This document shows, piece after piece, positions 34,013-48,314 of a stretch of DNA of 64,000 nt. The DNA is from Tyzzerella sp. An114 (GTDB lineage Bacteria; Bacillota; Clostridia; Lachnospirales; Anaerotignaceae). A program made the position numbers and the translations under genes. Position 1 is the first letter of the stretch. Every line of letters begins with the position of its first letter. The notes under the pieces are model-generated. The model saw nothing but the letters and a program-made list of their open reading frames with translations, was not told the origin of the DNA and made no database searches. Location: positions 62,001-126,000 of the forward strand of contig NZ_NFLT01000001.1 in the NCBI RefSeq assembly GCF_002161055.1, written 5' to 3'.

Positions 34013-34567
34013 TTAATAAAGTTTTTTACCTTTATTAATTTGCTTTACAAGTTTTCTTGCATAATCAAGAGTGTATTTTTCGCCTTTTTTAGAAAGCATA
34101 CAGAGAAGCTTTTCCAAAAGTTTTTGAGCCTTAGGGTGCATTATCACAAAATCCCTTCCCTGCATATAGTATTCCAAAGGGCTACTATCTGTATACATTT
34201 CTTTTTGGTAAACTTTACAAGCTGCAATTCTATCTGCAAGCATTTCTATGACATACTTTTCAGGTATTTTCATACCTGTTAAAGGTGCGTCTTTTCTTCC
34301 GCTGTAATCTATCCAATACTCATAATGATGTTTGTTTCTGCCTTTGTGATGTAACCATGAAGAAGAATATCCTATATCCTCCCTCTCTGCATTATTAGGG
34401 CTTCTATTCCCTTGAAAATATTTAGCTCCCACAATAAACTCTGTATAAGAATACTTTGACATATCATGTAAAATTCCTTGTTTAAAAAGTCCCATTTTAA
34501 AGCAGTATTGCATTACAAGCCATTTATGGTATGTTATTGTCTTAAAATGTCCTATAAATTTATTCAT
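34013..34567 (-). CDS. DUF5662 family protein
   Basis: A 184-aa soluble protein with many His, Tyr and Trp residues (LHDMSKYSYTEFIVGAKYF; SSSWLHHKGRNKHHYEYWID). This pattern resembles the DUF5662 family found in Firmicutes, where His and Asp clusters hint at an HD-like metal site; no activity is established as far as I know. I prefer ATG 34567, preceded by AGAGGG, over the ATG at 34594. It lies just upstream of, and divergent from, the split tRNA gene. Confidence 0.7.
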   Translation of the reverse strand: MNKFIGHFKTITYHKWLVMQYCFKMGLFKQGILHDMSKYSYTEFIVGAKYFQGNRSPNNAEREDIGYSSSWLHHKGRNKHHYEYWIDYSGRKDAPLTGMKIPEKYVIEMLADRIAACKVYQKEMYTDSSPLEYYMQGRDFVIMHPKAQKLLEKLLCMLSKKGEKYTLDYARKLVKQINKGKKLY

Positions 34568-34649
34568 AAAAATTCCCTCTATTCCTATAATCAATCCTAA
34601 CTATATTATCACAAAAAACTCTATAAATACAGGGTAAATTGCATTTTTC

Positions 34650-34678
34650 TTGACAATGTATTAATATACATTTATTAT
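34650..34678 (+). promoter_or_regulatory. Promoter of the host tRNA-Ser(CGA) gene
   Basis: A consensus TTGACA is followed after 17 bp by TATTAT, 19 bp upstream of the first tRNA base. This is the strongest promoter-like pair near either tRNA copy. Confidence 0.75.
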
Positions 34679-34697
34679 ATAATGTAGTCTAATTAAT

Positions 34698-34739
34698 GGA
34701 GACGTATCGAAGTGGTCATAACGAGGCTGACTCGAAATC
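34698..34739 (+). pseudogene. 5' half of the host tRNA-Ser(CGA), split by the element
   Basis: The sequence begins GGAGACG (acceptor stem), continues through a D-arm (GAAGTGGTCATAACGA) and stops after the anticodon loop CTCGAAA. Its missing half is at 48260-48314, where CGTCTCC closes the acceptor stem perfectly. Joined at the shared core, the two give an 86-nt class II serine tRNA with anticodon CGA. The split is the left junction of an integrated element. Confidence 0.93.
34729..34739 (+). repeat. attL core of the integrated element
   Basis: GACTCGAAATC occurs here and at 48260-48270 as a direct repeat. It covers the anticodon loop of the host tRNA-Ser gene. The element between the copies is 13,531 bp including one core. 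Confidence 0.88.
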
Positions 34740-34823
34740 CAATAGGTATATTTAATAACAGATGCCTGAAAATAGCTAAATATAAGGCTTTCAGCAAATA
34801 TATTAAATAGAAAAAAGCTAAAA

Positions 34824-34842
34824 TGCTAACAAATTGCTAACA
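34824..34842 (+). repeat. Candidate left arm sites for the integrase
   Basis: Two GCTAACA words 11 bp apart (TGCTAACAAATTGCTAACA) lie about 85 bp inside attL. The same spaced pair occurs near attR. This matches the direct-repeat arm sites of tyrosine integrases in layout. Confidence 0.6.
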
Positions 34843-34885
34843 GAATAATTTTTCTGATTTTTTAAAAATAATTTAATATTAATAT

Positions 34886-34974
34886 GGAGATGTACCGAAG
34901 TGGTTGTAACGGGTCTGATTCGAAATCAGTTTGTCGTTAATAGCGGCACGTGGGTTCGAATCCCACCATCTCCG
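34886..34974 (+). tRNA. tRNA-Ser(CGA), intact, carried by the element
   Basis: An 89-nt class II tRNA: acceptor stem GGAGATG/CATCTCC, D-arm, anticodon loop TTCGAAA with anticodon CGA, long variable arm, and T-arm GTGGGTTCGAATCCCAC. No CCA is encoded. Its 5' half differs from the split host gene at 7 of 42 positions and its variable arm is different, while the T-arm is identical. The first anticodon-stem pair (position 27-43) is T-T, a small flaw. I see no good promoter of its own in the 146 bp after attL; it lies on the same strand as the host tRNA promoter. Confidence 0.93.
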
Positions 34975-34980
34975 CTTATT

Positions 34981-35010
34981 GAAACCTTGATAATTCAAGG
35001 TTTCTTTTTT
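34981..35010. terminator. Terminator after the element-borne tRNA
   Basis: GAAACCTTGA and TCAAGGTTTC form a 10-bp stem with a 4-base loop and six T. It ends the tRNA transcript and, in the other direction, the integrase gene. Confidence 0.85.
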
Positions 35011-35031
35011 ATTTCAATCTATATTAATAAT

Positions 35032-36192
35032 TTATTTACTTTTTAATGCATTACCAATAGCATCAGCAGACAGTTGTTTTGAATGATAATCAATATGAGA
35101 ATATACGTCTGCTGTTGTAGAAAAGTTAGAATGTCCAAGCCATTCTTGAATTGATTTCATAGATATTCCTTCTGATACAAGCATACTGGCACAACTATGT
35201 CTTAATTCTTTAAAGGTTATTTTCTTTAATCCATATTTTTTCAATAATATTCTGAAATGGTCACTTACAAAATTAGGACGAAAAAGTTTTCCCATTTCAT
35301 TTACACAAACATAGTCTAAATATTCTGTACAAAAACTGTTTCCAAATAAGTTCCTGTTACGCTCAAGCTTTGCTTTATGCTTCAAAAGATTTTCTTCAAC
35401 AACTGGAATTAATGGAAGTGTTCGGTAACTAGATTTTGTTTTCAGCTTGTCCTCAGCATAAACAATTGTTTTTCCGTTTTCAGTAAGCTCTATAACTTTA
35501 TGATTTACTGTAATTGTTTTATTTTCAAAGTCAATAGCACTCCAACGCATACCAATAGTTTCACTTCTACGAAATCCATAATATGCACTTAAAATTATTG
35601 GTATGTAAATAGGGTCGTCTTTTGCAACATCTAACAAAGTCAAAATTTCTTCCTTGGTATAAAAACTTGCAATGTGCTTATTTTTCTTAGGACGTTTTAC
35701 ACGTTCAACAGGATTACTTGGTATATAATCATTTTTCACAGCATAGGCAAGTGCCTGATGAAGTACAGCATGATAATGAATTACTGTATTTGTTGTATAT
35801 CCCTGTTCTAAAATTTCATCATAAAGCATTTTTATGTGTTTAGGTTCAACTTCTGTTAAAAGCAAGTTTAATTTCTTAAAATGAGGTTTTATTCGTGCTT
35901 CAATCATATTGCTGTAACTTTTATATGTGGCACGTTCCACTAAAGGCTTTATAATTTTAAGCCACTCATCTAAGTAATCATTTATAAAAATTCTACTGCC
36001 GTCCATATTTTCCATTGACTCTTGTGTTTCGTATGTGCGTTTCATATTCTCCAAAAATTCTAAAGCACGTCTTTTATTTCCCTTTATAGATAAACCTGTA
36101 CTTGCAGATTTTTGTTTTCTTTTGCCATTAACATAATAGCTGACAACAGCATAATAAATTCCGTTTCTTTCATAAATACTTCCTGTTACCAT
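35032..36192 (-). CDS. int: Tyrosine recombinase / integrase
   Basis: A 386-aa phage-type integrase. Residues 1-60 form the arm-binding domain (GSIYERNGIYYAVVSYYVNG), about 70-165 the SAM-like core-binding domain, and about 175-375 the catalytic domain. Catalytic residues: Arg208 (YYGFRRSETIGMRW), Arg331 in FKELRHSCAS, His354 in WLGHSN and Tyr364 in ADVYSHID. The usual first His of HxxR is Lys328 here. The gene lies next to attL, as expected, and probably integrates and excises the element at the tRNA-Ser anticodon loop. Confidence 0.96.
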   Translation of the reverse strand: MVTGSIYERNGIYYAVVSYYVNGKRKQKSASTGLSIKGNKRRALEFLENMKRTYETQESMENMDGSRIFINDYLDEWLKIIKPLVERATYKSYSNMIEARIKPHFKKLNLLLTEVEPKHIKMLYDEILEQGYTTNTVIHYHAVLHQALAYAVKNDYIPSNPVERVKRPKKNKHIASFYTKEEILTLLDVAKDDPIYIPIILSAYYGFRRSETIGMRWSAIDFENKTITVNHKVIELTENGKTIVYAEDKLKTKSSYRTLPLIPVVEENLLKHKAKLERNRNLFGNSFCTEYLDYVCVNEMGKLFRPNFVSDHFRILLKKYGLKKITFKELRHSCASMLVSEGISMKSIQEWLGHSNFSTTADVYSHIDYHSKQLSADAIGNALKSK

Positions 36193-36287
36193 AAAAATTC
36201 TCCTTTCTTTAAAAATCGTCCATCTAAGGTGTTTTGGTATATTACCATAGTCGGATAGTTTTTAACAGTCTTTTTTATTGTTTCTTT

Positions 36288-36506
36288 TTATTTATTGTTT
36301 TCATATAGAAATTTAATGATATTGACTTTTGGAATTAAATACATACGTCCTATTTTCACAGATTGCATTTTTCCACTTTTTAAAAGAGCATAAGCAGTAG
36401 TTCTACCAATCCCCCCAAGCATTTTTCGCATATCTTCTACATGAACTACATCAGGATATGAGCGAAACATTTTAAAATAATCATTTTTTGATGAAATTTG
36501 CGTCAT
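36288..36506 (-). CDS. xis: Excisionase-like HTH protein
   Basis: A 72-aa protein with a MerR-like winged helix of the excisionase type (VVHVEDMRKMLGGIGRTTAYA; GKMQSVKIGRMYLIPKVNII). Such proteins bend the attachment sites and favour excision. It lies 95 bp upstream of the integrase gene on the same strand. The size and HTH_17-like pattern support the call; I use xis only as a role label. Confidence 0.85.
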   Translation of the reverse strand: MTQISSKNDYFKMFRSYPDVVHVEDMRKMLGGIGRTTAYALLKSGKMQSVKIGRMYLIPKVNIIKFLYENNK

Positions 36507-36547
36507 ATTATATCCCCCACTTTACGTTTTGTGTTATAATATTAAAA

Positions 36548-36580
36548 AAGTAATAGTATAACTGCTTAAAACTATTACTT
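36548..36580. repeat. Perfect inverted repeat between xis and the sigma-like gene
   Basis: AAGTAATAGT and ACTATTACTT are separated by 13 bp, between two divergent genes of the element. It could be an operator controlling both directions or a hairpin. No protein is assigned. Confidence 0.55.
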
Positions 36581-36642
36581 ATATAATAAAGACGGTGAAA
36601 ATATAAAAAACGGTATCACGTATCGAAACATTTTAAAAGAAG

Positions 36643-37116
36643 GTGATTATTATTGATACATACAATGATTTAATGAACCAAGAAATACTTACAAATCAAG
36701 ATAAACTGTTGATTGAAAAATGGAAAACTGTATTAGATGAACTTGACAACACTGAAAAATGTAATGAACGCCGACACAAGGAAAAACGTGATATGCTTGA
36801 TATAACTTTGTGTCAATGCCAAAATGATAATGATGACTATATTTCATCAAAAATAAAACTTAAATTGAGCACCACTGATGAAAACTGGATAGATTGGATT
36901 TTTTCAAAAAGCTCTGCTGATTTATATCAGCTGACAGAAAGTAAAGAGCTGTCAAAATCATTGATGACTCTAACAACAATGCAAAGAAAAGTTGTTTTTT
37001 TATTTTATATCCATGGTTTTTCAGTAAGGGATATTGCTAGAATATTTGGTAGCAGTGAAAGAAATATCCGTAAAATACGTGAGAGAGCAAAAAGTCATAT
37101 GAAAATATCAATTTAA
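36643..37116 (+). CDS. Sigma-70 region 4-like regulator of the element
   Basis: A protein of up to 157 aa. The C-terminal 60 residues form a sigma region 4 helix-turn-helix (MTLTTMQRKVVFLFYIHGFS, DIARIFGSSERNIRKIRE). The N-terminal part is charged and helical. Related small proteins regulate transfer or excision in Tn916-like elements and other IMEs. The start is uncertain: GTG 36643 overlaps the AGAAGG ribosome site, and ATG 36673 is an alternative. It is divergent from xis. Confidence 0.75.
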   Translation: MIIIDTYNDLMNQEILTNQDKLLIEKWKTVLDELDNTEKCNERRHKEKRDMLDITLCQCQNDNDDYISSKIKLKLSTTDENWIDWIFSKSSADLYQLTESKELSKSLMTLTTMQRKVVFLFYIHGFSVRDIARIFGSSERNIRKIRERAKSHMKISI

Positions 37117-37133
37117 GAAAGGACATAGCAATA

Positions 37134-38000
37134 ATGAAAAAGATAAAAGAAATATATGAAAATAGAATTTCAAAGTGGAAAAAATATTCATCTTATGAAA
37201 TTATTAAAATAAAAAATTGTGATTATATTGTGCCAAGTAAAAATTCAGTAGCTGAATGGTATGACCCTATTGAAAATGAAGAAGAATTAATATCTGATGT
37301 TTTAAATATGGGAAAGATAGTTGCCGATACTGAAAAATATGAAAAAATTAAAAAAACTGTTTTTGATTTTGTATCAAAGTATGGTTTATTAGGCTGGATA
37401 ATGTATCTACCTGTAAATGAAAATTTTTACTTAGAAAGTACTGTTTTTCTTACAGAAAATGAATACTTTATTTTTTCAAACACCACAATGGACACAAAAA
37501 AATATATTGAACAATTTCAAATAGAACCAAGTAAAGAAAATATTTTTGGAACAGCCAAAACTTTGGGGCGTTCTCCTGTATATGAATTGATATTTTCAAA
37601 AAATTATTGTGAACCTGTTGACTGGGCTATTTGTTTTTTACAAGAAATGTATGAACATTTCCGTGCAAAAGAAATGATATATGACCCTAAATATAATCCA
37701 CTAGAAAAATTTATGTTAATGAAAAAAATAGAAAACTTTCATCATGTTGGTGTTCCATATGTGATAAAGTATTATCCCACACTAGGAACCTATTGGATAT
37801 TTAATAGTCTAACAATGATAATAGAAACAGCTTGTTTGATTGCATTAGGTCAGAAAGAAAGTCCCATAGCTATATGTAAACATTGTGGAAAATATTTTTA
37901 TCGTGAAGATATAAGAATTGAATACTGCTCACATAAGTGTAGAAACCGTTATCATGTTTATAAAAGCAGAAATAAAAATAAAAAACAATTAGAAAAATAA
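37134..38000 (+). CDS. DUF6076/CGNR-like zinc-finger protein of the element
   Basis: A 288-aa protein. The last 35 residues carry a zinc-binding motif, CKHCGKYF then YCSHKCRNRYHVYKSR, typical of proteins found on Gram-positive IMEs and ICEs. The N-terminal 240 residues are Tyr/Phe-rich with no motif I recognise. It starts 17 bp after the sigma-like gene and is probably co-transcribed. DNA binding is an inference from the finger. Confidence 0.65.
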   Translation: MKKIKEIYENRISKWKKYSSYEIIKIKNCDYIVPSKNSVAEWYDPIENEEELISDVLNMGKIVADTEKYEKIKKTVFDFVSKYGLLGWIMYLPVNENFYLESTVFLTENEYFIFSNTTMDTKKYIEQFQIEPSKENIFGTAKTLGRSPVYELIFSKNYCEPVDWAICFLQEMYEHFRAKEMIYDPKYNPLEKFMLMKKIENFHHVGVPYVIKYYPTLGTYWIFNSLTMIIETACLIALGQKESPIAICKHCGKYFYREDIRIEYCSHKCRNRYHVYKSRNKNKKQLEK

Positions 38001-38377
38001 TTAATCATGCACATTTACCCCGTTGTTTGCCCCTGTGTGGCGTTTTATTCAGACTATGGAGTAAATAGCCGATTAGATGTAAAAGCCACAGAAAAACGGG
38101 AATTTAGAAATAGTTGAAAATATGAAAAGTAAATAGACAATATCTATGCTCCAAAAAGATTGCAGGTTAAAGTGGCGGTGTCTTGTTCCGCCACAAATTC
38201 CTCAAATCACCGCAGTGCGGAGATTTATTGCCACCGAAATTTGGTGTCATAAATAAGTTACAGACTCCAAAAACAGCACTTTATTATAGAAAAAATTAGG
38301 TTTTACCTTAGGAAATAGGGACTTTATGCCCGACATCGTTACCGACGTCAAATGTTTTTCAAAAGGAGTGAAGAAAA
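38001..38377 (+). other. Structured non-coding region, probable oriT
   Basis: A 377-bp stretch upstream of the mobilization genes, less AT-rich than its surroundings. It holds several hairpins: GTGGCGG/CCGCCAC at about 38171-38193, CCGCAGTGCGG near 38205, CACCGAAATTTGGTG near 38233, and GACATCGTTACCGACGTC near 38332. The position directly before an RHH-like gene and a relaxase gene is where MobP-type elements keep the origin of transfer. The nick site cannot be named. Confidence 0.55.
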
Positions 38378-38782
38378 TTGCAAAAAGATAATATAAAACA
38401 TACATTTACTGTTAGACTTTCGGAAGAAACAGCCAATATTTGTGCTGCCGGTATGGCAATAGATGATTGCCGAAGCCGAAATGAATTTATTGAAAAGGCC
38501 ATAAAATATTATGTTGGATATCTTTCCGCAGATAAAGATAAATTAGTATTAGGAGAACAAATTCAAAAATTAGTAGAGTCATCAGTAAAATCTTCTGAGA
38601 GCAGACTCTCAAACCAGACATTCAGAATAGCAGTAGAACTAGCAAAACTACAAAGAATACTTTCTTTTTACTGTCAGATAGACGAAGAAACGCTGACTCA
38701 ACTTCATAGAGTATGTGAAAAGGAAGTCAAAAATATAAATGGTGCTTTATCTTTAGAAGATATAATAAGACATGAAAAATAA
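38378..38782 (+). CDS. RHH-like mobilization accessory protein
   Basis: A 134-aa protein starting at TTG 38378 behind AAAAGGAGTG. Residues about 8-45 (HTFTVRLSEETANICAAGMA, SRNEFIEKAIKYYV) form a ribbon-helix-helix-like DNA-binding segment; the rest is helical. This type of protein helps a relaxase bind oriT. It lies 21 bp upstream of the relaxase gene. Called by context and pattern. Confidence 0.7.
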   Translation: MQKDNIKHTFTVRLSEETANICAAGMAIDDCRSRNEFIEKAIKYYVGYLSADKDKLVLGEQIQKLVESSVKSSESRLSNQTFRIAVELAKLQRILSFYCQIDEETLTQLHRVCEKEVKNINGALSLEDIIRHEK

Positions 38783-38803
38783 TAGAAATGAGGTTGTATA
38801 CTT

Positions 38804-40114
38804 ATGGCAAAAATCATTTTTACTGCAAGGTATATGAAAAATATTTCTCAGGGAAAAATCAAAAACTATGTAAAATATATCGCCACAAGACCAAACTCAG
38901 AAAGATACTCCCACCCTATCTCCCATGAAGTTTCAGAACTACAAAAGGAATGGATAGAAAAAGAACTAAAAAAATCTGTAAAACTTAAAGAAGAATGTAC
39001 ACAGGAATATCAGGCTTATAAAATAAATCCTAACTGTCATACAGCAGAAAATCTCATTCATAAAATTGCTGAAACTAATATATACCATGGAAATGATATA
39101 AAAAAATATATTGCTTACTTGGCTAAACGTCCTGGAGCAGAGTTTACAGAACAAGGACACGCCCTTTGGAATGATAGTAATGAAAAAATCCATTTACAAA
39201 AAGTACAAAAGAAAGCCGCAGAATATCAGGGACGTATTTGGAACTTTGTTGTTTCACTAAAACGAGAAGATGCTCAAAGATTAGGGTATGATAATGCTAA
39301 AACTTGGAGAAATTTAATCATACAAAAATCTTTATCAATAGCAAAAGAAATGAGAATTAAACCTGAAAATCTTGTTTGGTATGGTGCATTTCATAACGAA
39401 GGTCATCACCCTCATGTACATATTATGTGCTATTCCAAAAATCCAAAAGAAGGTTATCTGACCAAAAAAGGTATTGAAAACTTGAGAAGTACCTTTGCTC
39501 ACGAGATTTTTCACGATGAATTTTATCATCTCTATGAGCAGAAAGATGAGATGCGTAAATGTATTCGTGATAACTGTAAAAACTTTCTGGAAAAATCGTT
39601 ATCTTTGGAAAGTGGGGAAAATGCTTATGTACAGGCATTGTTATTAGCCTTGGCAAAGAACCTTAAGACAGCAAAACATAAAAAAGTCTATGGTCGTCTC
39701 GCCAAAGAAAATAAACTTTTGGTAGATGAAATCATTTCTGAAATCAGCAAAGATAAAAAAATAGATTCTCTTTATCAATCGTGGTTGGAATTAAAAGACG
39801 AAATCTTATCTTTCTATGACGGTAAAAACTATGCAAGACACTCTTTTTCTGATGAGCCTGAGTTTATAAATATCAAAAATCTTGTACTTAAAACTGCATT
39901 AGAAATTAGTAATATGCAAAATGAAACACAAAATCATAATAATCAAATAAAAAATGATATAATCAAAAATCATTTTATACAGTTGATTAAAGAAGTTAGT
40001 AATATAATTGAAGAAGATTACAAAAAACAAGATGCAGATATAGATATTATAGAACATAAGTTACGACAGAAAATACAAGAAAAGAAAAAAGCTCAAGGAA
40101 TAAAAATGGGATAA
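38804..40114 (+). CDS. MobP-type (MobP3-like) relaxase
   Basis: A 436-aa relaxase that would nick oriT and lead the strand during mobilization. The metal-binding histidine motif is clear: GAFHNEGHHPHVHI at about residues 194-207. The N-terminus (IIFTARYMKN) and the double YIATRP/YLAKRP blocks are typical of this group; the catalytic tyrosine is not certain to me. The C-terminal 130 residues are helical and charged. No type IV secretion genes are present, so the element would use the transfer apparatus of another plasmid or ICE. Confidence 0.88.
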   Translation: MAKIIFTARYMKNISQGKIKNYVKYIATRPNSERYSHPISHEVSELQKEWIEKELKKSVKLKEECTQEYQAYKINPNCHTAENLIHKIAETNIYHGNDIKKYIAYLAKRPGAEFTEQGHALWNDSNEKIHLQKVQKKAAEYQGRIWNFVVSLKREDAQRLGYDNAKTWRNLIIQKSLSIAKEMRIKPENLVWYGAFHNEGHHPHVHIMCYSKNPKEGYLTKKGIENLRSTFAHEIFHDEFYHLYEQKDEMRKCIRDNCKNFLEKSLSLESGENAYVQALLLALAKNLKTAKHKKVYGRLAKENKLLVDEIISEISKDKKIDSLYQSWLELKDEILSFYDGKNYARHSFSDEPEFINIKNLVLKTALEISNMQNETQNHNNQIKNDIIKNHFIQLIKEVSNIIEEDYKKQDADIDIIEHKLRQKIQEKKKAQGIKMG

Positions 40115-40164
40115 AAACAGAAAATACTTTATAAAAATATAATAAATTTGAATTATTAAAAAAT

Positions 40165-40201
40165 TACTCTTACCAACAATTATAAATTATTGGTAAGAGT
40201 A
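40165..40201. terminator. Hairpin between the convergent relaxase and helicase genes
   Basis: TACTCTTACCAA and TTGGTAAGAGTA form a 12-bp stem. It has no strong T run but lies between convergent genes. Confidence 0.6.
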
Positions 40202-40256
40202 CAATAATAATTATCTATCCTTACTATATTTAAAAAACAGCTTTGTATTTATTATT

Positions 40257-43200
40257 TTACATGTCTATTTCATCAAAAATAAAATCACCAATCATATAAT
40301 TCTTAGGGTCTAATGCCGCAGAAATGACATGATTTTGAAAAGTGTCATCTGATATATCAGATAAAATTTCATGGGCACGCTGTTTTATTTTTAATAATAA
40401 ATCTGTTCTATTTTTATTGTTTTCCTCAGAAGTCATATATGTTTCCGGTTCAATATCTAATTCTTTTAATTGACGAATAACTCTTTCCATTGTACCATCC
40501 GGATTTCTATAATACTCACTACCTCTAATACGAATAAACTGCCAACCAAGACGTTCTAAAACAGTTTGTCTTTCCATATCTTCTCTAATTTTTGCCTCTC
40601 CGCTATGATAACGCTCTCCATCACATTCTATTGCAATTTTTTTATCTTTACATACAACAACCATATCTAAACGGTAAGCACCAACTTGCCATTGTTGTAC
40701 TAAGTGATAATTTCTTGCAGAAAGATATTTTGCAACTTCAGCTTCAAATGGAGATTCTGATTTTTTCTCAATTTGTGCTTGAAGTTCTGTTATTGCCTCA
40801 GGGTGTAATGAATACTCAATCAATTCTTTACGAATATCTCCAGGCTTTAAGTCATTAGCAGGGTCAATAGAATCAACAACCCATAATTGGTCTTTAGCAC
40901 GACTAGTTGCAACATTATATCGTTTTCGATAAGAATCTTCTGTGCCATATCCCTGTTTTGTCAAAGGACCATTTCCATTTGAACAATCTACTAAACTAAG
41001 GAATATAACATCACGTTCATCACCTTGAAAGTTAGAGGCATTGCCACATAAAATACGACGTTTATTACATTCCTTTATATCAATATTATTATATATTTCT
41101 TCTTGAATTTTTTTTACTTGTTCATCTCCTAATAAAGAAATAACACCAAAAGTTTTATCACAGTATTCTGGCTGTTCCATACATGCTTTCATAAGTGCCA
41201 CAATAGCTTTAGCCTCATTTGGATTTGTTTTTCCAACACGCTCACCATTCTCTACACGATAATTTATTACAGCAGGTTTCAACAAGTTTTTACTACCATC
41301 ACGAAGTGGTTTTATCTTGAAATCATAAGAAAATTTATTTGAAAACCCAATAATTTCCGGTACACAACGAAAATGTTCTCGTAACATTAAAGGTTGAAAT
41401 GTTGTAGCTGCAATATCATAAATAGAAGTTTTAGCATCATATAAATGTGCATTTGGAATTTTGTCAGTTATATACATATCTTTTAAGCTATTAATTTTTT
41501 CTATATCAACTCCTACAGCCATAGGACTTACCTGTTTATCATCACCTACAATAACAAGTTTTTTTCCCATATATAATATTGCTAGAGACGAAATATCTGA
41601 TTGACTAGCTTCATCAATAATTACTACATCAAACTTATTCTCTTTCGGATTAAGATTTTCTAAGGCTTTACTAATCGGCATAATCCAAGCTGGAACAGCA
41701 TTTTGACATTTTATCATGAGTTTTCTTGCCTCAGCACGGTACATAGGTGCATTTTTACCTGTTCCTTTACCAATTTTTTTTACAGTCTGTTTCCACCCTA
41801 TTAAAGCTTGTTTCATGTCAATATCATGCTCTGTTCTTTTTAAAAGCTGATACCAAGCACATTTTTCTGCATATTTTGCTGTAATATCTCTGTACTCTTT
41901 ACTTAAAAAAAGACTTTTCTTTTGCAATTCTTCAAAAGGTTCTGAGGTAATTTCCTCAATTATGCCATAATATTGCTTCCATTTCCAAGCTTCTTCCAAA
42001 TCTGAAGGCATAACTTCAAGACCATGAATTCCGGTTCGATTTCGAATAGCTTCTGCCCACTCAAAAGCAATAGGTGATAATTTATTCAAATATTCTTCTC
42101 TCTTTCTTTGTAAATCATATTTTACATAAATTTGTTCCAAAACCCTATATGCATTACGATACATAGAAATATCACCATTTTCTATGGCTTTTAAAATATC
42201 TTTACAAATATTTGATGCCACTCTCTTATCAAGTGTCAAAATATTTTTATTTTTTTCTAATTGTTGATATATATGGTCAATAGTATTTATTTCATCAAAT
42301 ACATCACAAATAGAAGGAATTATATAATTCATTGAGTGTAAAATCTTTTCTGTTGCAACTATTTCTGAATCCAATGGATTTTTTTTGAAAACTATATCAC
42401 AAGGAATGTTGACACCATTAATATAATCTACTAAATCTGTATATTCGTTATCATACCAATCAAGATATCTCTTTATCCAAGATATATAATTTGCTGCCAC
42501 ACGTTCTGGTTCATTAATATCTAAATCATAAAACAATGGTACACCGTATTTTCCAATCAAATTATTCCAATAAGAAGCACATTGCTCTCTTATTGTGTTC
42601 ATCTCTATAGTTTGAATAATAAGATTACAGTCTTCTACATTTTGAGGTTTATGTCTATCAACGGTTGCACCATCTAACGCAATTCCTAAATTTTTATTTA
42701 GAAAAAGTGTTAATTTACTGATTTTACTATTTTGTTTATACTTTTCATGTAACTGTTTTACTGCTTCAACATACTCAGGGTCTTTATTTAAAATTCTTAT
42801 ATCTTTACCAAATCTTTCTGCTAATATTTTTTCTGCATATTCACATGTTTTTTCAATCTGTTCTATTAAAATAAGCCATAATTGTCTATACTGACCACCT
42901 TTTTTTCCGTCAACTGCACAATGTAACTTCCACGGTTCAAAGCCAGAAAAGGTACTAATATAAGATTTTAACTTTTTAACAGCTTCTTGATTTGGATAAT
43001 TTAAGTTTAATTCAATATCTTCCCCTTTTATAGAAACCGTTCTTTCTCTTATTAAATTTTCTATTTTCCATATATTTTTCTTAGATATATTATCCAAATT
43101 TCTATTAGCATCGTGCAAATGCTGCATAACCTCTTCAAATTCAATTATAGACATTAATTCATTTGGATTAGGCAAATTTGCACTTAACTCCATTTCATCT

Positions 43201-44912
43201 ATAGAGCTTATTTCGCCATTACTTCGGTATAAGTCATTTAATTCCGCAAAATTAAGTGGTAATGGTTCATATAAACGAACTTTACCTGGTATATAAGATA
43301 ATTTTTCTTGATGTTCTAACACATAAGCAGCAGCTTCAGAAGGAGAAACACTTTCTCCTTGATACACAATACAATTACATTCTTTATAAATCATAGCAAA
43401 TAATTTTTTTCGAACATCAGCAAGGTCATTAATTACTTTTGTTCGTTCCTGTGCTAACTTTTCCATGTCATTCTTTAGTTCATATGATGTAAAATGTGAC
43501 ATGTATTCTGTAATACCATCAATAGATTTTTCCATATCTATATTTGAATCATCTAACATTGAAACACAAAGACTCTGTAAACCTGGTACCAATTTTTCTT
43601 TTAATACACTTAAAGCCTTCTGTGTATGACTTGTTACCAAAATACTTTTTCCCTGTGCTAGAAAATGTCCCATTAAGTTTGCAATAGTATGTGTTTTGCC
43701 AGTACCTGGTGGTCCCTGAACTAACACAGCATTGTATCTCTCTATACGTTGAGCAATTTCCAACTGTTCTTTGTTTGCTTCCTTAGACAATAAAATATTG
43801 ACACTCTCCCCACCAACAGCTGCTAACTGTTCTTCAACAGAAACTTCTCCTGTTTCTTCCAGAATATCAATTTTACCACCATCTACAATATCTTTAATTG
43901 GATTAGGAATAACATCTGTTTCTTCTATATTTTCAATAATTTGTTCAATAGTTTTTAATGCACCATCTAATTTTTTTCGTAAAATATAACAAGGATTTCT
44001 ATACATTAATAAACGCTCTTGTTCTTCCCATTCTTTTGGAATTCCTTCGTCTGAATAAATACTTTCTCCTGAAAGTTGATGAATAAATCTCTGAAAAAAT
44101 ACTGGTAATTCGTTTCTATCCAAAGGGTGATAATCATTTTGTCTTAAGTATTCATTCATATAATTTATTGTTCCAAGATTTATATCTTCCATATTTTGAA
44201 AAAGAACAGTATATAATTCTGTTGTCACATCTGTATCTTTAATATAAATAGTATTTTCCATATCATCATAATAGATTTTTACACGTTTTGTTAAAATAGG
44301 ATGGTCAATTTCAGGATTATTTTTATCACGAATAAATCCATCTGCAACTACTAGTTCTAAAGTTTCTGAGTCTCGTTCTAAATCCACAGAAATTTTATAT
44401 AATTCTGTAAAAAAACTTCTCGTATCATCATAAGTTTTTTGTTTTGTTGCCCAAACTTTTCTATCTTCCAACCATTTATGAAAATCTTCTACACGCTTAG
44501 GATTGTCATAGAAATTCTCTAAAGGTTCTTCTTCTGTGTCTTCTTCACTTAATACAGGATTAATATTATTATATTCTTTTATGGAAACTTCTATATGATA
44601 ATCATTCCAACCATCATTTAACCATTTTAAAATATCTTCACTTGGTTTAGGACAATGTTGAAATTCTGGTTTATGCACAGCTAATAAAATATCCATAGGC
44701 TGTTCTGTGTCGTTTTCCTGTACATAATCACGATAATATACTTTTATATTTTCAGAGTCCTTTGGAAAAGATGCAATAGAACGATACCACTGATAATCTT
44801 TTGCTTTTAATACCACTTTTTGTTTTAACTTATTAAGTTCTGCAATAAATTGAAACAGAGAAATTACTTTATCATGTTTTGTTATTTCTTCTGTACCCCC
44901 GTTTTCAATCAA
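40257..44912 (-). CDS. Very large SF1 helicase with C-terminal Vsr/DUF559-like nuclease domain
   Basis: A 1551-aa cargo protein. Residues 1 to about 370 are unrecognised. The Upf1-like superfamily 1 helicase has Walker A GPPGTGKT at 400-407, a long helical insert, Walker B DEAS at 1100-1103 with VGDDKQVSP soon after, and a motif VI-like NVATSRAKDQLWVV. The last 150 residues are an MTES_1575/Vsr-like endonuclease: FEAEVAKYL, RLDMVVV, and IECDGERYH around 1429. DUF4011-helicase-Vsr proteins of similar build have been reported as anti-phage defence. Start is TTG 44912 behind AAGGGGGT. A defence role is inference. Confidence 0.85.
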   Translation of the reverse strand: MIENGGTEEITKHDKVISLFQFIAELNKLKQKVVLKAKDYQWYRSIASFPKDSENIKVYYRDYVQENDTEQPMDILLAVHKPEFQHCPKPSEDILKWLNDGWNDYHIEVSIKEYNNINPVLSEEDTEEEPLENFYDNPKRVEDFHKWLEDRKVWATKQKTYDDTRSFFTELYKISVDLERDSETLELVVADGFIRDKNNPEIDHPILTKRVKIYYDDMENTIYIKDTDVTTELYTVLFQNMEDINLGTINYMNEYLRQNDYHPLDRNELPVFFQRFIHQLSGESIYSDEGIPKEWEEQERLLMYRNPCYILRKKLDGALKTIEQIIENIEETDVIPNPIKDIVDGGKIDILEETGEVSVEEQLAAVGGESVNILLSKEANKEQLEIAQRIERYNAVLVQGPPGTGKTHTIANLMGHFLAQGKSILVTSHTQKALSVLKEKLVPGLQSLCVSMLDDSNIDMEKSIDGITEYMSHFTSYELKNDMEKLAQERTKVINDLADVRKKLFAMIYKECNCIVYQGESVSPSEAAAYVLEHQEKLSYIPGKVRLYEPLPLNFAELNDLYRSNGEISSIDEMELSANLPNPNELMSIIEFEEVMQHLHDANRNLDNISKKNIWKIENLIRERTVSIKGEDIELNLNYPNQEAVKKLKSYISTFSGFEPWKLHCAVDGKKGGQYRQLWLILIEQIEKTCEYAEKILAERFGKDIRILNKDPEYVEAVKQLHEKYKQNSKISKLTLFLNKNLGIALDGATVDRHKPQNVEDCNLIIQTIEMNTIREQCASYWNNLIGKYGVPLFYDLDINEPERVAANYISWIKRYLDWYDNEYTDLVDYINGVNIPCDIVFKKNPLDSEIVATEKILHSMNYIIPSICDVFDEINTIDHIYQQLEKNKNILTLDKRVASNICKDILKAIENGDISMYRNAYRVLEQIYVKYDLQRKREEYLNKLSPIAFEWAEAIRNRTGIHGLEVMPSDLEEAWKWKQYYGIIEEITSEPFEELQKKSLFLSKEYRDITAKYAEKCAWYQLLKRTEHDIDMKQALIGWKQTVKKIGKGTGKNAPMYRAEARKLMIKCQNAVPAWIMPISKALENLNPKENKFDVVIIDEASQSDISSLAILYMGKKLVIVGDDKQVSPMAVGVDIEKINSLKDMYITDKIPNAHLYDAKTSIYDIAATTFQPLMLREHFRCVPEIIGFSNKFSYDFKIKPLRDGSKNLLKPAVINYRVENGERVGKTNPNEAKAIVALMKACMEQPEYCDKTFGVISLLGDEQVKKIQEEIYNNIDIKECNKRRILCGNASNFQGDERDVIFLSLVDCSNGNGPLTKQGYGTEDSYRKRYNVATSRAKDQLWVVDSIDPANDLKPGDIRKELIEYSLHPEAITELQAQIEKKSESPFEAEVAKYLSARNYHLVQQWQVGAYRLDMVVVCKDKKIAIECDGERYHSGEAKIREDMERQTVLERLGWQFIRIRGSEYYRNPDGTMERVIRQLKELDIEPETYMTSEENNKNRTDLLLKIKQRAHEILSDISDDTFQNHVISAALDPKNYMIGDFIFDEIDM

Positions 44913-45334
44913 AATAATACCCCCTTATATTACTTTAATATGATATAAACAATATCTCTAATCTAATCCATATTATTTATCTAATTAAATTTAGTTTCGT
45001 ATTCTCAAAATATCAATTAACTTTATATAAAACTTTATAATCATATTTTTTATTAAATTATGTTATATATCCATTACAAACATATTCTTTTATGTAACTA
45101 ATCGAGTATTATATTAGCATAAATTAACTTATTTTTCAAATTTATGGTATCTAAAAACTTAAAATTAGATGTTAACTCAAATTTCAATAAATTAAGTTTT
45201 AGATTTTTATTATATCTTTAGTAATTCAGAGTAAAAGCAAAAATATAATAATATCAATATTTTTCTTTTGTAAAAATATATTATATTGTTTTTTAAAAGC
45301 TATGATATAATTAGAAAAAACGGAGTTGATGGAA
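44913..45334. other. AT-rich divergent intergenic region
   Basis: About 420 bp between the helicase and the DUF2971-like gene, very AT-rich. It should hold both promoters. I see no gene, repeat or hairpin of note. Confidence 0.5.
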
Positions 45335-46051
45335 ATGAATAGTTCTAACAATTTTTTAATTGCAAAATTTGGAAATAAAAATCATTTAGAACAGCTTCAA
45401 AACGGCAATATATTTTTTAATTCAATTCAGGCATATCGAAATGACGGAACTGATTATAGAGGAGATTCAATGGAAGGGAAAATTCCTATTAATCCAACAG
45501 ATATTAAAATATTTAATAGCGAAGGTAAGAATATTTTTGAAACACTTCCATATCCTGATATAGCAATAGAATCAATATTAGATGATGAAAATCTTATGAT
45601 GTTCTGTGCTGCAATGATTAACATAGAAATTTTGGATAATGTTAAGAATAACAAATGGCATTTTAAAGATATATTTAAGTCATCAATTAAAGACTTTGGA
45701 GATTATGTTTTATTACTTTGGTCTACAGAATTATTAGATCATATAAAATCATCAACAGATTTGAACAAACAGAAAATAGTATATGATTCAAGACCTATTC
45801 TTTATAGAAATCTCTATGATTTTGATAATACAGAAGAATATAGAACAACTGGAAGTTGGATTGATAGATATTTTGTAAAAGGTTTATCTTATAAAAATCA
45901 AAATGAATGGAGAATTATTATCGATGGTGAAAAAGAACCTTTAAAGGCAAACTGTGGAAACGGTTTTTTATTACAAACATCTCCATTTAAGTATAGTACA
46001 CTTATGAAAACAACTGAATTACTCAATGGAGAAATAGAGATCAAAAATTAG
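45335..46051 (+). CDS. DUF2971-like protein of unknown function (element cargo)
   Basis: A protein of about 238 aa. The pattern fits DUF2971-like proteins: an N-terminal LIAKFGNKNHLEQLQNGNIF with FFNSIQAYRND, an inner FCAAMIN region and, near the C-terminus, the hallmark YKNQNEWRII. The family is seen on mobile elements and has no established activity. I prefer ATG 45335 (GGAG nine bases upstream) over TTG 45326. It lies between two minus-strand cargo genes on its own transcript and ends in a strong terminator. Confidence 0.55.
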   Translation: MNSSNNFLIAKFGNKNHLEQLQNGNIFFNSIQAYRNDGTDYRGDSMEGKIPINPTDIKIFNSEGKNIFETLPYPDIAIESILDDENLMMFCAAMINIEILDNVKNNKWHFKDIFKSSIKDFGDYVLLLWSTELLDHIKSSTDLNKQKIVYDSRPILYRNLYDFDNTEEYRTTGSWIDRYFVKGLSYKNQNEWRIIIDGEKEPLKANCGNGFLLQTSPFKYSTLMKTTELLNGEIEIKN

Positions 46052-46062
46052 AAATATAAACT

Positions 46063-46105
46063 AACAAAAGTGGTGGTTATCTCTTAAAATACCACCACTT
46101 TTGTT
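46063..46105. terminator. Strong bidirectional terminator
   Basis: AACAAAAGTGGTGGT and ACCACCACTTTTGTT form a perfect 15-bp stem with a 13-base loop, just after the DUF2971-like gene. Confidence 0.88.
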
Positions 46106-46299
46106 ATATAATAGACCTATCACTAGCAATATAGACTTTTATAACTTGTATTTTAAGTTCTTTGTTATAACGTACTGATATAACATATCCTTCTTGAATA
46201 ATTATAATATTAATATGTTCATATTATTCTAACAATGTGTTGCAATTATATTATACTAGTAAACTATAATTTTCCCATGATTATAAACTTTTATTCTTA

Positions 46300-46809
46300 T
46301 TATCCATATGTTTCAAACATATACTGTGCACGTTCAGCAGTAAATTCCCACCCTTCTGGAATACGGTCTATTGTTCCACTTCCAGCGGCACGAGATCCCC
46401 ATTTGTGATATTCATAAAGAATTGTATCACCACGACCACCAGCAGAAACATTTAACACTTCTGCAAATTCAACAGGAGATGCAAGATACATTCGTGGCAT
46501 TTCATCATCCCTTATTCCTTTAAACTGCACCAAACAGAATATAGTCTTTTTATTATGACTATCTAACCATTTTTGAACTGCTTCATGATAATCACAACCT
46601 TTTTTGTAGTTTTGAGTCAACCCCCAACTACCATCTTGACTACCCTTTACCGAAATTTTTAACATTTTATCTCCAGAAACAGCAATCAAATCATACTCTG
46701 GTTGATTTGCTCCATATTGAACAGATACATCGTAACACAATCTTGCAAATTGTGCAGCAACAAACGCCTCTGCAGCTATACCAACGTGCCATGATGACAT
46801 TTTTCCCAT
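46300..46809 (-). CDS. PD-(D/E)XK nuclease-like protein (element cargo)
   Basis: A 169-aa protein. An acidic helix residue (Glu14 in IAAEAFVAAQFA), Asp40 in PEYDLIAVSG and the strand ISVKGSQ with Lys55 make the D-x(n)-(S)xK pattern of the PD-(D/E)XK fold seen in resolvase-like and restriction-like nucleases. The second half is unrecognised. ATG 46809 follows GAAGAGGT. It could be a small nuclease or a protein with the fold but no activity. Confidence 0.6.
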   Translation of the reverse strand: MGKMSSWHVGIAAEAFVAAQFARLCYDVSVQYGANQPEYDLIAVSGDKMLKISVKGSQDGSWGLTQNYKKGCDYHEAVQKWLDSHNKKTIFCLVQFKGIRDDEMPRMYLASPVEFAEVLNVSAGGRGDTILYEYHKWGSRAAGSGTIDRIPEGWEFTAERAQYMFETYG

Positions 46810-47301
46810 TTATATTACCTCTTCTATACAAATTATCAATTTCAATTTCTTTAACGCTTTTAAATACCCAACTTTAATTTCAAAACATTAATAACTTTTT
46901 ACAGGTTTAGAATAAATCAAACTTCAAACTTAACTTCATAAATCCCCTTATCTATGTATTTGTCCAATAATAATTTCAATAATTCACAAACAAAAGCTTT
47001 AGATTTCTCTTCTCTATGAGAATTTTCCATAATTTATTGTAACAAACAGGCATGATATTTTTTCTTATTTTATGTTTCTATTGTTTTTATTATATCAAAA
47101 ACCAAATTACACTTCAATTTACAATTAATTATACCAATATTTAGAAATTAAACCGCCCTTTCATTTTACTTTCTAGTATAATTAATACATCCATATTGTG
47201 TAAACATTACACTACACTTGTTTCCTACGTTCACCTCACTTGTTTCCCATATTCACCCAAACTATACTAAATAACTATAAACATATAACTATACTCATCT
47301 A
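46810..47301. other. AT-rich region with little content
   Basis: About 490 bp on the element between the nuclease-like and replication-type genes. It contains one short open frame (listed separately) and otherwise only AT-rich sequence. Confidence 0.5.
46917..47030 (-). CDS. Possible 37-aa small ORF
   Basis: Reads MENSHREEKSKAFVCELLKL and continues to end KGIYEVKFEV. The charged, helix-like composition is protein-like, but no ribosome binding site precedes it. It may be a remnant or chance frame. Confidence 0.22.
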   Translation of the reverse strand: MENSHREEKSKAFVCELLKLLLDKYIDKGIYEVKFEV

Positions 47302-47991
47302 TCATATCTTCGGATAGACAGCTGTTGAAATAAGCAATTTTTCAGTCTGTAAATATTCCATAAACATCGTTTTCAAATATGCTTTTAAATTCTTTTTATC
47401 AGAATAATTTCTACAAGCAATATGCTGTAAAAATCCCAATATATCTAAACTGCTAACTTCTTTCAATAATTTCTTATCTTCTGAAGAAGATTTATTATAA
47501 AGCTCAGGAATACACCTACAAATAAAATCAACCATATAAATGTTATCTGGCATATTCTCAACAAAATATTCATAATCAATTTGTTCTTTTATTTCCTCTA
47601 ACTTATAATCATATTCAACTTGTTTTTTCGATTTAGAGTTTTCAGAAGAAGTAGTTGATGTATATTCATTTTTTATTTGGCTATTTGGTGAACTTATATT
47701 TTCTGATTTCTTAGAAAGAAAATATATATTACTTTTGTGACCTCCATTTTTTGTACGTTGTTGTTTTTTCTGTATCCACCCCTTTTCACACAAAGAAGAA
47801 ACACACTGTATGACAGTCTTTTTAGAACAGCCAACTTTCTCAGCTATAGTATTATAAGACGGATAGCATGTACGTGTGTCATTATCAGAAAAGGCACACA
47901 AAATACAATAAACTAATTTTTCAAGATAAGTTAATTCTGAATCAAAGAGAACATCTCTTTCCACCATAACAAAAGGTCGTGTTAATTTCAT
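47302..47991 (-). CDS. Replication-type winged-helix protein (DUF6017-like)
   Basis: A 229-aa protein. Residues about 1-85 form a winged helix of the HTH_36 type (TYLEKLVYCILCAFSDND; YPSYNTIAEKVGCSKKTVIQ) as in plasmid initiators. A Ser/Asn-rich linker follows, and the last 90 residues resemble the DUF6017 domain common on Firmicute mobile elements. It likely helps replicate the excised circle. ATG 47991 has GGAGG seven bases upstream, better than ATG 47997. Confidence 0.72.
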   Translation of the reverse strand: MKLTRPFVMVERDVLFDSELTYLEKLVYCILCAFSDNDTRTCYPSYNTIAEKVGCSKKTVIQCVSSLCEKGWIQKKQQRTKNGGHKSNIYFLSKKSENISSPNSQIKNEYTSTTSSENSKSKKQVEYDYKLEEIKEQIDYEYFVENMPDNIYMVDFICRCIPELYNKSSSEDKKLLKEVSSLDILGFLQHIACRNYSDKKNLKAYLKTMFMEYLQTEKLLISTAVYPKI

Positions 47992-48010
47992 AAGCATTCC
48001 TCCAGACAGA

Positions 48011-48056
48011 AAAAGACCATACAGTAAGAGGTTTTACTCTTTCTGTATGGTCTTTT
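48011..48056. terminator. Large hairpin just upstream of the replication-type gene
   Basis: AAAAGACCATACAG and CTGTATGGTCTTTT form a 14-bp stem around an inner AAGAG/CTCTT hairpin. T runs flank both sides, so it can terminate in both directions. On the minus strand it lies right before the ribosome site of the replication-type gene and could act as an attenuator. Confidence 0.75.
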
Positions 48057-48088
48057 GACCTAAGATAGACGATTTAATAAATAATATC

Positions 48089-48108
48089 TGCTAACAAAAT
48101 GCTAACAA
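48089..48108 (+). repeat. Candidate right arm sites for the integrase
   Basis: TGCTAACAAAATGCTAACA contains two GCTAACA words 11 bp apart, in the same orientation as the left pair at 34824. About 150 bp from attR. Confidence 0.6.
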
Positions 48109-48259
48109 AACAATATGAAATCAGCTTTTTTCTATGGTTGGATAAAAGTCTAATTTTCCGCTGTTTTTTGCCTTAAAAGCCAGTATTTTCAAGGGTTTTA
48201 GCTATCACTTATTAACACAAACCAACACATAAAAACACTAGAAACAACTCAATTTTAAA

Positions 48260-48314
48260 GACTCGAAATCAGTTTGTCCGAAAGGGCACGTGGGTTCGAA
48301 TCCCACCGTCTCCG
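48260..48314 (+). pseudogene. 3' half of the host tRNA-Ser(CGA), with attR core
   Basis: GACTCGAAATC (48260-48270, the attR core) is followed by the variable arm, T-arm GTGGGTTCGAATCCCAC, acceptor strand CGTCTCC and discriminator G. It pairs with the 5' half at 34698. No promoter faces it, so it should be silent while the element is present. Confidence 0.93.

Follow-up and report, generated by a model that had tools for sequence, protein, structure and literature searches.

The stretch of DNA analysed here (the window: 64,000 nt of Tyzzerella sp. An114, assembly GCF_002161055.1, contig NZ_NFLT01000001.1, positions 62,001–126,000) contains a 13.5-kb integrative mobilizable element (IME) whose ends lie in the two halves of a host tRNA-Ser(CGA) gene. 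As judged from sequence, the whole is very probably best explained by a tRNA-splitting IME that replaces the tRNA of the split gene with one of its own behind the host promoter. A tyrosine integrase would recombine a short core over the anticodon loop of tRNA-Ser(CGA), and integration would cut the host gene without rebuilding it. A short way inside attL and on the same strand, the element would provide a complete tRNA with an identical anticodon, and the host tRNA promoter would read the dead 5' half and the leader, then the element tRNA, and stop at the terminator.

The element is bounded by two copies of GACTCGAAATC (34729–34739 and 48260–48270), an 11-bp core that is common to both tRNA halves and occurs only these two times on both strands of the window, and it cuts the host gene within the anticodon loop. 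Rejoined, the halves give an 86-nt tRNA-Ser(CGA) that was accepted by ARAGORN and pairs fully in the acceptor stem (7/7), T-stem (5/5) and anticodon stem (5/5), as expected from the original prediction of a perfect serine tRNA joined at an 11-bp core. The uninterrupted 86-nt gene that this prediction suggested looking for in relatives was found in a genome of the same genus (L072; 95% identity over 86 nt), at an empty site that joins both halves and whose neighbours are orthologous to those of the window (two upstream with 80% and 42% protein identity, and one downstream with 53%). Because the uninterrupted gene has the same flanking genes, the boundaries of the element are settled, and the split pattern is beyond chance. 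No 3' block rebuilds the tRNA, since the common sequence is limited to the core and the host gene is left broken. Thus the predicted combination of a split without rebuilding and a complete tRNA carried by the element was borne out.

The carried tRNA sits 146 bp inside attL (Table 1) and is 83% identical to the host gene. It holds the core with one mismatch (GATTCGAAATC at 34917), and its anticodon stem is paired at 4/5 positions, with one position unpaired. All four + strand copies of TGCTAACA in the window belong to the pairs near the two ends of the element (shuffles expect 1.3), and such pairs are found near both ends of related elements too; these repeats are probable arm-type sites of the integrase. 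Scanning 34560–35060 for promoter-like sites scoring at least 9/12 revealed only two on the + strand, at 34563 (10/12) and 34650 (11/12); the stretch separating the dead half from the full tRNA had none. The original prediction had placed a host promoter upstream, no clear promoter of its own before the carried tRNA and a terminator behind it. All three agree with our analysis: the site at 34650 is the best candidate to drive the element tRNA, the search for a second promoter before 34886 returned none at this threshold, and the terminator is intrinsic.

Table 1. Positions of the attachment sites, tRNA parts, control signals and genes of the An114 element in the window
Feature	Start	End	Strand	Remarks
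Host promoter TTGACA-17-TATTAT	34650	34678	+	upstream of dead half and element tRNA
Host tRNA-Ser(CGA) 5' half, attL	34698	34739	+	ends with core; intact orthologue in L072
Leader, left end of element	34740	34885	+	two direct repeats TGCTAACA at 34824 and 34835
Complete element-borne replacement tRNA-Ser(CGA)	34886	34974 (34974/5)	+	same strand as split gene
Intrinsic terminator behind replacement tRNA	34981	35004	+	
Tyrosine integrase	35032	36192	-	PF00589 6.7e-22
Excisionase-like HTH protein	36288	36506	-	HTH_17; TIGR01764 27.1 bits, just below cutoff 28.8
Sigma region-4-like regulator	36643	37116	+	
Conserved element protein	37134	38000	+	62-64% identical in three related elements
Small protein ahead of relaxase	38378	38782	+	no family match; possible mobilization accessory, by position only
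MobP3/MobL relaxase	38804	40114	+	PF18555 5.3e-27; NF041499 7.9e-81, above cutoff
SF1 helicase with C-terminal REase_MTES_1575 nuclease	40257	44912	-	candidate defence cargo
Replication-initiation / DnaD-like protein	47302	47997	-	
Right-end arm repeats (probable)	48089	48107	+	TGCTAACA twice
attR	48260	48314	+	core, then host tRNA-Ser(CGA) 3' half

Fifty-eight loci came from a pattern-based scan of species genomes; together with the window and nine family rows they made 68 rows (66 distinct loci, as L122/L135 and L125/L143 are duplicates; L066 had no usable integrase match). In 19 loci, including the window, a complete tRNA near a related integrase is preceded by a dead 5' half of the same orientation, so that the integrase with an adjacent tRNA, which the original prediction proposed to search for in other genomes, recurs with several isoacceptors. 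Read by eye, the anticodon of the half was the same as that of the complete tRNA in 18/18 readable loci (L009, with a decayed half, was left out of the count), and the concordance extended over seven anticodons: Ser CGA and UGA, Leu UAA and CAA, and Arg UCU, UCG and ACG. The replacement tRNAs had acceptor pairing of 7/7 in 19/19 loci despite differing stems, a full T-stem in 18/19 and a full anticodon stem in 18/19, the window's being the exception. The carried tRNA might instead serve mainly as a decoy against tRNA-cutting defence, or for translating element genes. Such roles have been proposed for phage tRNAs (PMC10865867), and TCG is slightly commoner in the element than in the host (1.31 compared with 0.79 per 1000 codons). 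However, these are tiny counts (4 and 11 codons), and neither role needs an anticodon that matches the split gene in every readable locus; we regard this explanation as highly improbable. L022, which is not counted among the 19, has a half followed after ~30 bp by a full tRNA-Leu(CAA), and its integrase is 2.5 kb away. In Anaerotignum lactatifermentans An390, a second family integrase (L126/L187) adjoins both a complete tRNA-Leu(CAA) and a dead 5' half with CAA in its anticodon loop.

Comparison of the carried tRNAs between genomes indicated that they are transferred between genera. The 87-nt element tRNA of A. lactatifermentans An390 is identical in another genus (G006), where the host half is different or decayed, and both A. 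lactatifermentans DSM 14214 and UC5.1-1D10 contain a dead half equal to its first 41 nt. Likewise, the current tRNA of DSM 14214 is identical in two further genera, G031 (86 nt) and G082 (80 nt covered), and all three have a similar short leader behind three different halves. The carried tRNA therefore appears to travel, because identical copies follow different halves in different genera. The same evidence bears on the idea that the tRNA is a passenger, either a remnant of an older element or a duplicated host gene, which the present element merely adjoins. Such an origin would suit the piling up of tRNA fragments at these sites (see below) as well as the rarity of UCG and the existence of tRNA-Ser(UGA), but it is very unlikely given that the same tRNA with a matching leader stands behind different halves in different genera, that anticodons agree throughout the readable loci and that the stems of the carried tRNA remain paired. 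A separate tRNA-Ser(CGA) 3' half (L186; contig 58 of G063) is followed by a terminator resembling that behind the tRNA of the Anaerotignum elements, hinting that the tRNA–terminator cassette derived from a host gene like this one.

A promoter match of at least 9/12 was found upstream of the outermost half in 9/19 loci and in the leader in 0/19. Promoter capture would give that pattern, and the captured host promoter is likely to drive the element tRNA; read-through expression and functional complementation are what we infer for the replacement. The other possibility is a promoter in the leader itself, with the host promoter unused, as for the tRNA of phage Fionnbharth, where a 136-bp fragment upstream of the tRNA drives a reporter (PMC10865867). 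The window's leader, at 146 bp, would be long enough for this, and AT-rich TTAATAT-like motifs lie directly before several of the tRNAs. We nevertheless consider an own promoter possible but unlikely, since no leader gave a match at the threshold and four leaders are 31–45 bp long, with little or no room for a full promoter.

Several loci contain rows of dead halves. DSM 14214 has one intact tRNA behind four dead halves, which represent three sequences; the genome has a single integrase at E<=1e-40, and the CGA-tRNA pattern matches the intact gene only. Two halves in a row were observed in UC5.1-1D10, G014, L012, L033 (the outer one decayed), L053 and L058, and G066 has a row of halves as well. 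In G014, a 3' half located on another contig matches the outermost 5' half in its acceptor and anticodon stems, as read by eye, which is what nested insertion predicts. The 3' half in Papillibacter (L180), 148 kb away, was rejected, as its acceptor strand fits neither stacked half. The stacks are best explained by serial insertion of elements into the tRNA of a predecessor, with the older body then lost. Because the core barely exceeds the anticodon loop, the carried tRNA would itself be a target for related elements; these would split it, replace it again and leave ordered dead 5' halves, and the older bodies would be lost via recombination at the right ends. Tandem duplication, by slippage or by homologous recombination between leaders, is an improbable alternative to serial integration. 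The leaders are similar to one another, layers 1 and 3 of DSM 14214 have an identical half sequence, and this genome retains one integrase and no inner 3' half that we could find, all of which would suit duplication; the other halves differ, however, one of them being the 5' 41 nt of the An390 element tRNA, and the innermost short leader is common to other genera. Returning to serial insertion, we see about even chances that a lineage of Clostridia has undergone a serial succession of tRNAs, in which a newcomer targets its predecessor's tRNA and uses the same promoter, and the older body and the host 3' half are lost. If this were true, the chromosome would irreversibly hand over decoding by that isoacceptor to a series of mobile elements, and the ordered row of dead 5' halves would record that passage. 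The integrase of the UC5.1-1D10 element (L011/L130) is interrupted, being matched in two overlapping pieces and containing one TAA in G064 (the same genome), and this element may be stranded.

A number of observations count against replacement as we describe it. Six promoter-like sites were present on both strands of the window region alone, where 3.1 are expected; in 10/19 loci the region upstream of the outermost half also lacks a promoter match of at least 9/12, and the loci do not count as independent cases. Since the core includes or adjoins the anticodon of a dead half, the last bases of that anticodon are to some extent tied to the element. The contigs of G006, G031 and G082 stop close to the tRNA, and an adjoining integrase was not seen on them. 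No inner 3' half was found for any stack searched, and in DSM 14214 and UC5.1-1D10 the right end has the core with no recognisable 3' half after it; simple excision would therefore be unable to restore the host gene there. Of the more distant rows, 16 whose DNA continues for 1.4 kb or more downstream of the integrase lack any tRNA within 1.5 kb of it (e.g. L015, L019 and L041). Finally, tRNA-Ser(UGA) is present in the genome of the window, as is tRNA-Ser(GGA), and UCG accounts for 11/13,950 codons (0.79 per 1000) in the 33 host open reading frames (ORFs) of the window. tRNA-Ser(UGA) could decode UCG by wobble. Because this tRNA is present and UCG is rare, the carried tRNA is perhaps dispensable and may be neither essential to the host nor required for stable integration. 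Neither BLAST nor a pattern search found another tRNA-Ser(CGA) in the genome assembly (98.75% complete), and the CGA-tRNA pattern was matched in 46/58 genomes of the family and in 32/37 good ones (the matches include a few that are not tRNAs, and variants such as the intact gene of G002 are missed). Thus the split, the carried tRNA and the host promoter of the original prediction hold, but the dependence of the host on the element for UCG decoding is unproven.

Integration modes appear to interchange along the integrase tree. The nearest integrase relatives (88% and 64% identity) carry the tRNA; the original prediction had regarded related elements without it as contrary evidence, and the nearest ones agree with the prediction, but the 16 distant rows do not and four loci show the classical rebuild. 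In these four (L023, L025, L044 and L054), a complete tRNA is accompanied by a displaced 3' half of 45–57 aligned bases. L031 and L034 have a displaced 3' half and no complete tRNA in the DNA covered, and the remaining rows have a full tRNA without a half in the DNA covered or are cut by a contig end. On the tree of 57 rows, the split-and-replace label required 12 changes, and well-supported branches force nine or more of these, but the labels are noisy (several F and N rows are contig-cut, the C label includes L031 and L034, and L122/L135 is present twice with two labels). Phage integrases also show a mixture of modes (PMC10865867).

A pattern scan of viral contigs with the window integrase gave no relative. 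Phage records gave 161 integrase matches at E<=1e-20, with identities all below 60% among the best 25 of the 161. Of three of these records, L172 combines a full tRNA-Ser(CGA) with a 5' half, and L173 has no Ser tRNA. The third, phage-collection record MT836946 (L171), contains a full tRNA-Ser(CGA) and the core with no half. Its core is flanked by non-tRNA sequence, with ParA/ParB-like ORFs (by eye) on the far side, and might represent either a secondary site or an attP belonging to a circular form; no terminal overlap of at least 15 bp was found, and a circle is not established.

The gene content of the An114 element (integrase, excisionase-like, sigma-like, relaxase, helicase–nuclease and replication-initiation genes) places it among the IMEs: it has its own integrase with an excisionase-like protein, its own relaxase and no complete conjugation apparatus among its ten main ORFs. 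Type IV secretion families were absent from these ten (smaller ORFs were not scanned), and phage structural families from ten ORFs searched with Pfam and nine searched with PHROGs. The 1551-aa helicase–nuclease, with PDC-S37 as its top PADLOC match (3.8e-66) followed by Hhe (2.5e-42), is likely to be anti-phage cargo.

It may be possible to read from the stacks in what order one site was invaded, and they suggest that mobile elements can deprive a host of a chromosomal tRNA gene. For annotation, complete tRNAs and halves by such integrases may be element genes and fossils respectively.

tRNA-dependent lysogeny is established in actinobacteriophages, including Fionnbharth, LeBron, Gaia and others (PMC10865867). 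In common with it, the An114 element has a tyrosine integrase, an attB over a host tRNA gene and a shared core too short, at 11 bp, for the tRNA to be rebuilt; as in phage Gaia, the tRNA is downstream of the integrase gene. The tRNA-swap strategy of the original prediction is therefore present here but not unprecedented, as phages do likewise. Whereas the lysogeny described in that source is carried by temperate phages of Actinobacteria, the carrier here is a mobilizable element of Clostridia, with a relaxase and no phage structural matches, and the tRNAs are those for Ser, Leu and Arg and occur in stacks when split. In contrast with Fionnbharth, whose tRNA has its own promoter (PMC10865867), the An114 element has its tRNA on the same strand as the split gene and directly downstream of the host promoter. 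The Lj965 prophage of Lactobacillus johnsonii is a Firmicutes element that reportedly leaves the tRNA without repair and encodes a cognate one; it is a prophage, however, and the passage on it in PMC10865867 describes no stacking. Classical tRNA islands (Islander, PMC4383910) similarly have a tyrosine integrase by attL in a tRNA gene, but there a 3' block restores the gene, whereas only 11 bp are common here and the host gene stays broken. The disrupted tRNA-Thr of Caldiarchaeum (PMC3293823) also combines a complete tRNA with a nearby 5' tRNA fragment and recombinase, although that case is archaeal, with an intron-bearing tRNA and a 1.8-kb element. Neither stacking nor mobilizable elements with replacement tRNAs were found in the open-licence literature searched. 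Several features appear to be new: the carrier is mobilizable and occurs in Clostridia, the isoacceptors are varied, the host promoter is probably used, and split tRNAs form stacks. They take tRNA-dependent integration beyond phages, to a mobilizable element, and beyond Actinobacteria, to Clostridia, and they bear on its prevalence elsewhere, a question left open in PMC10865867.

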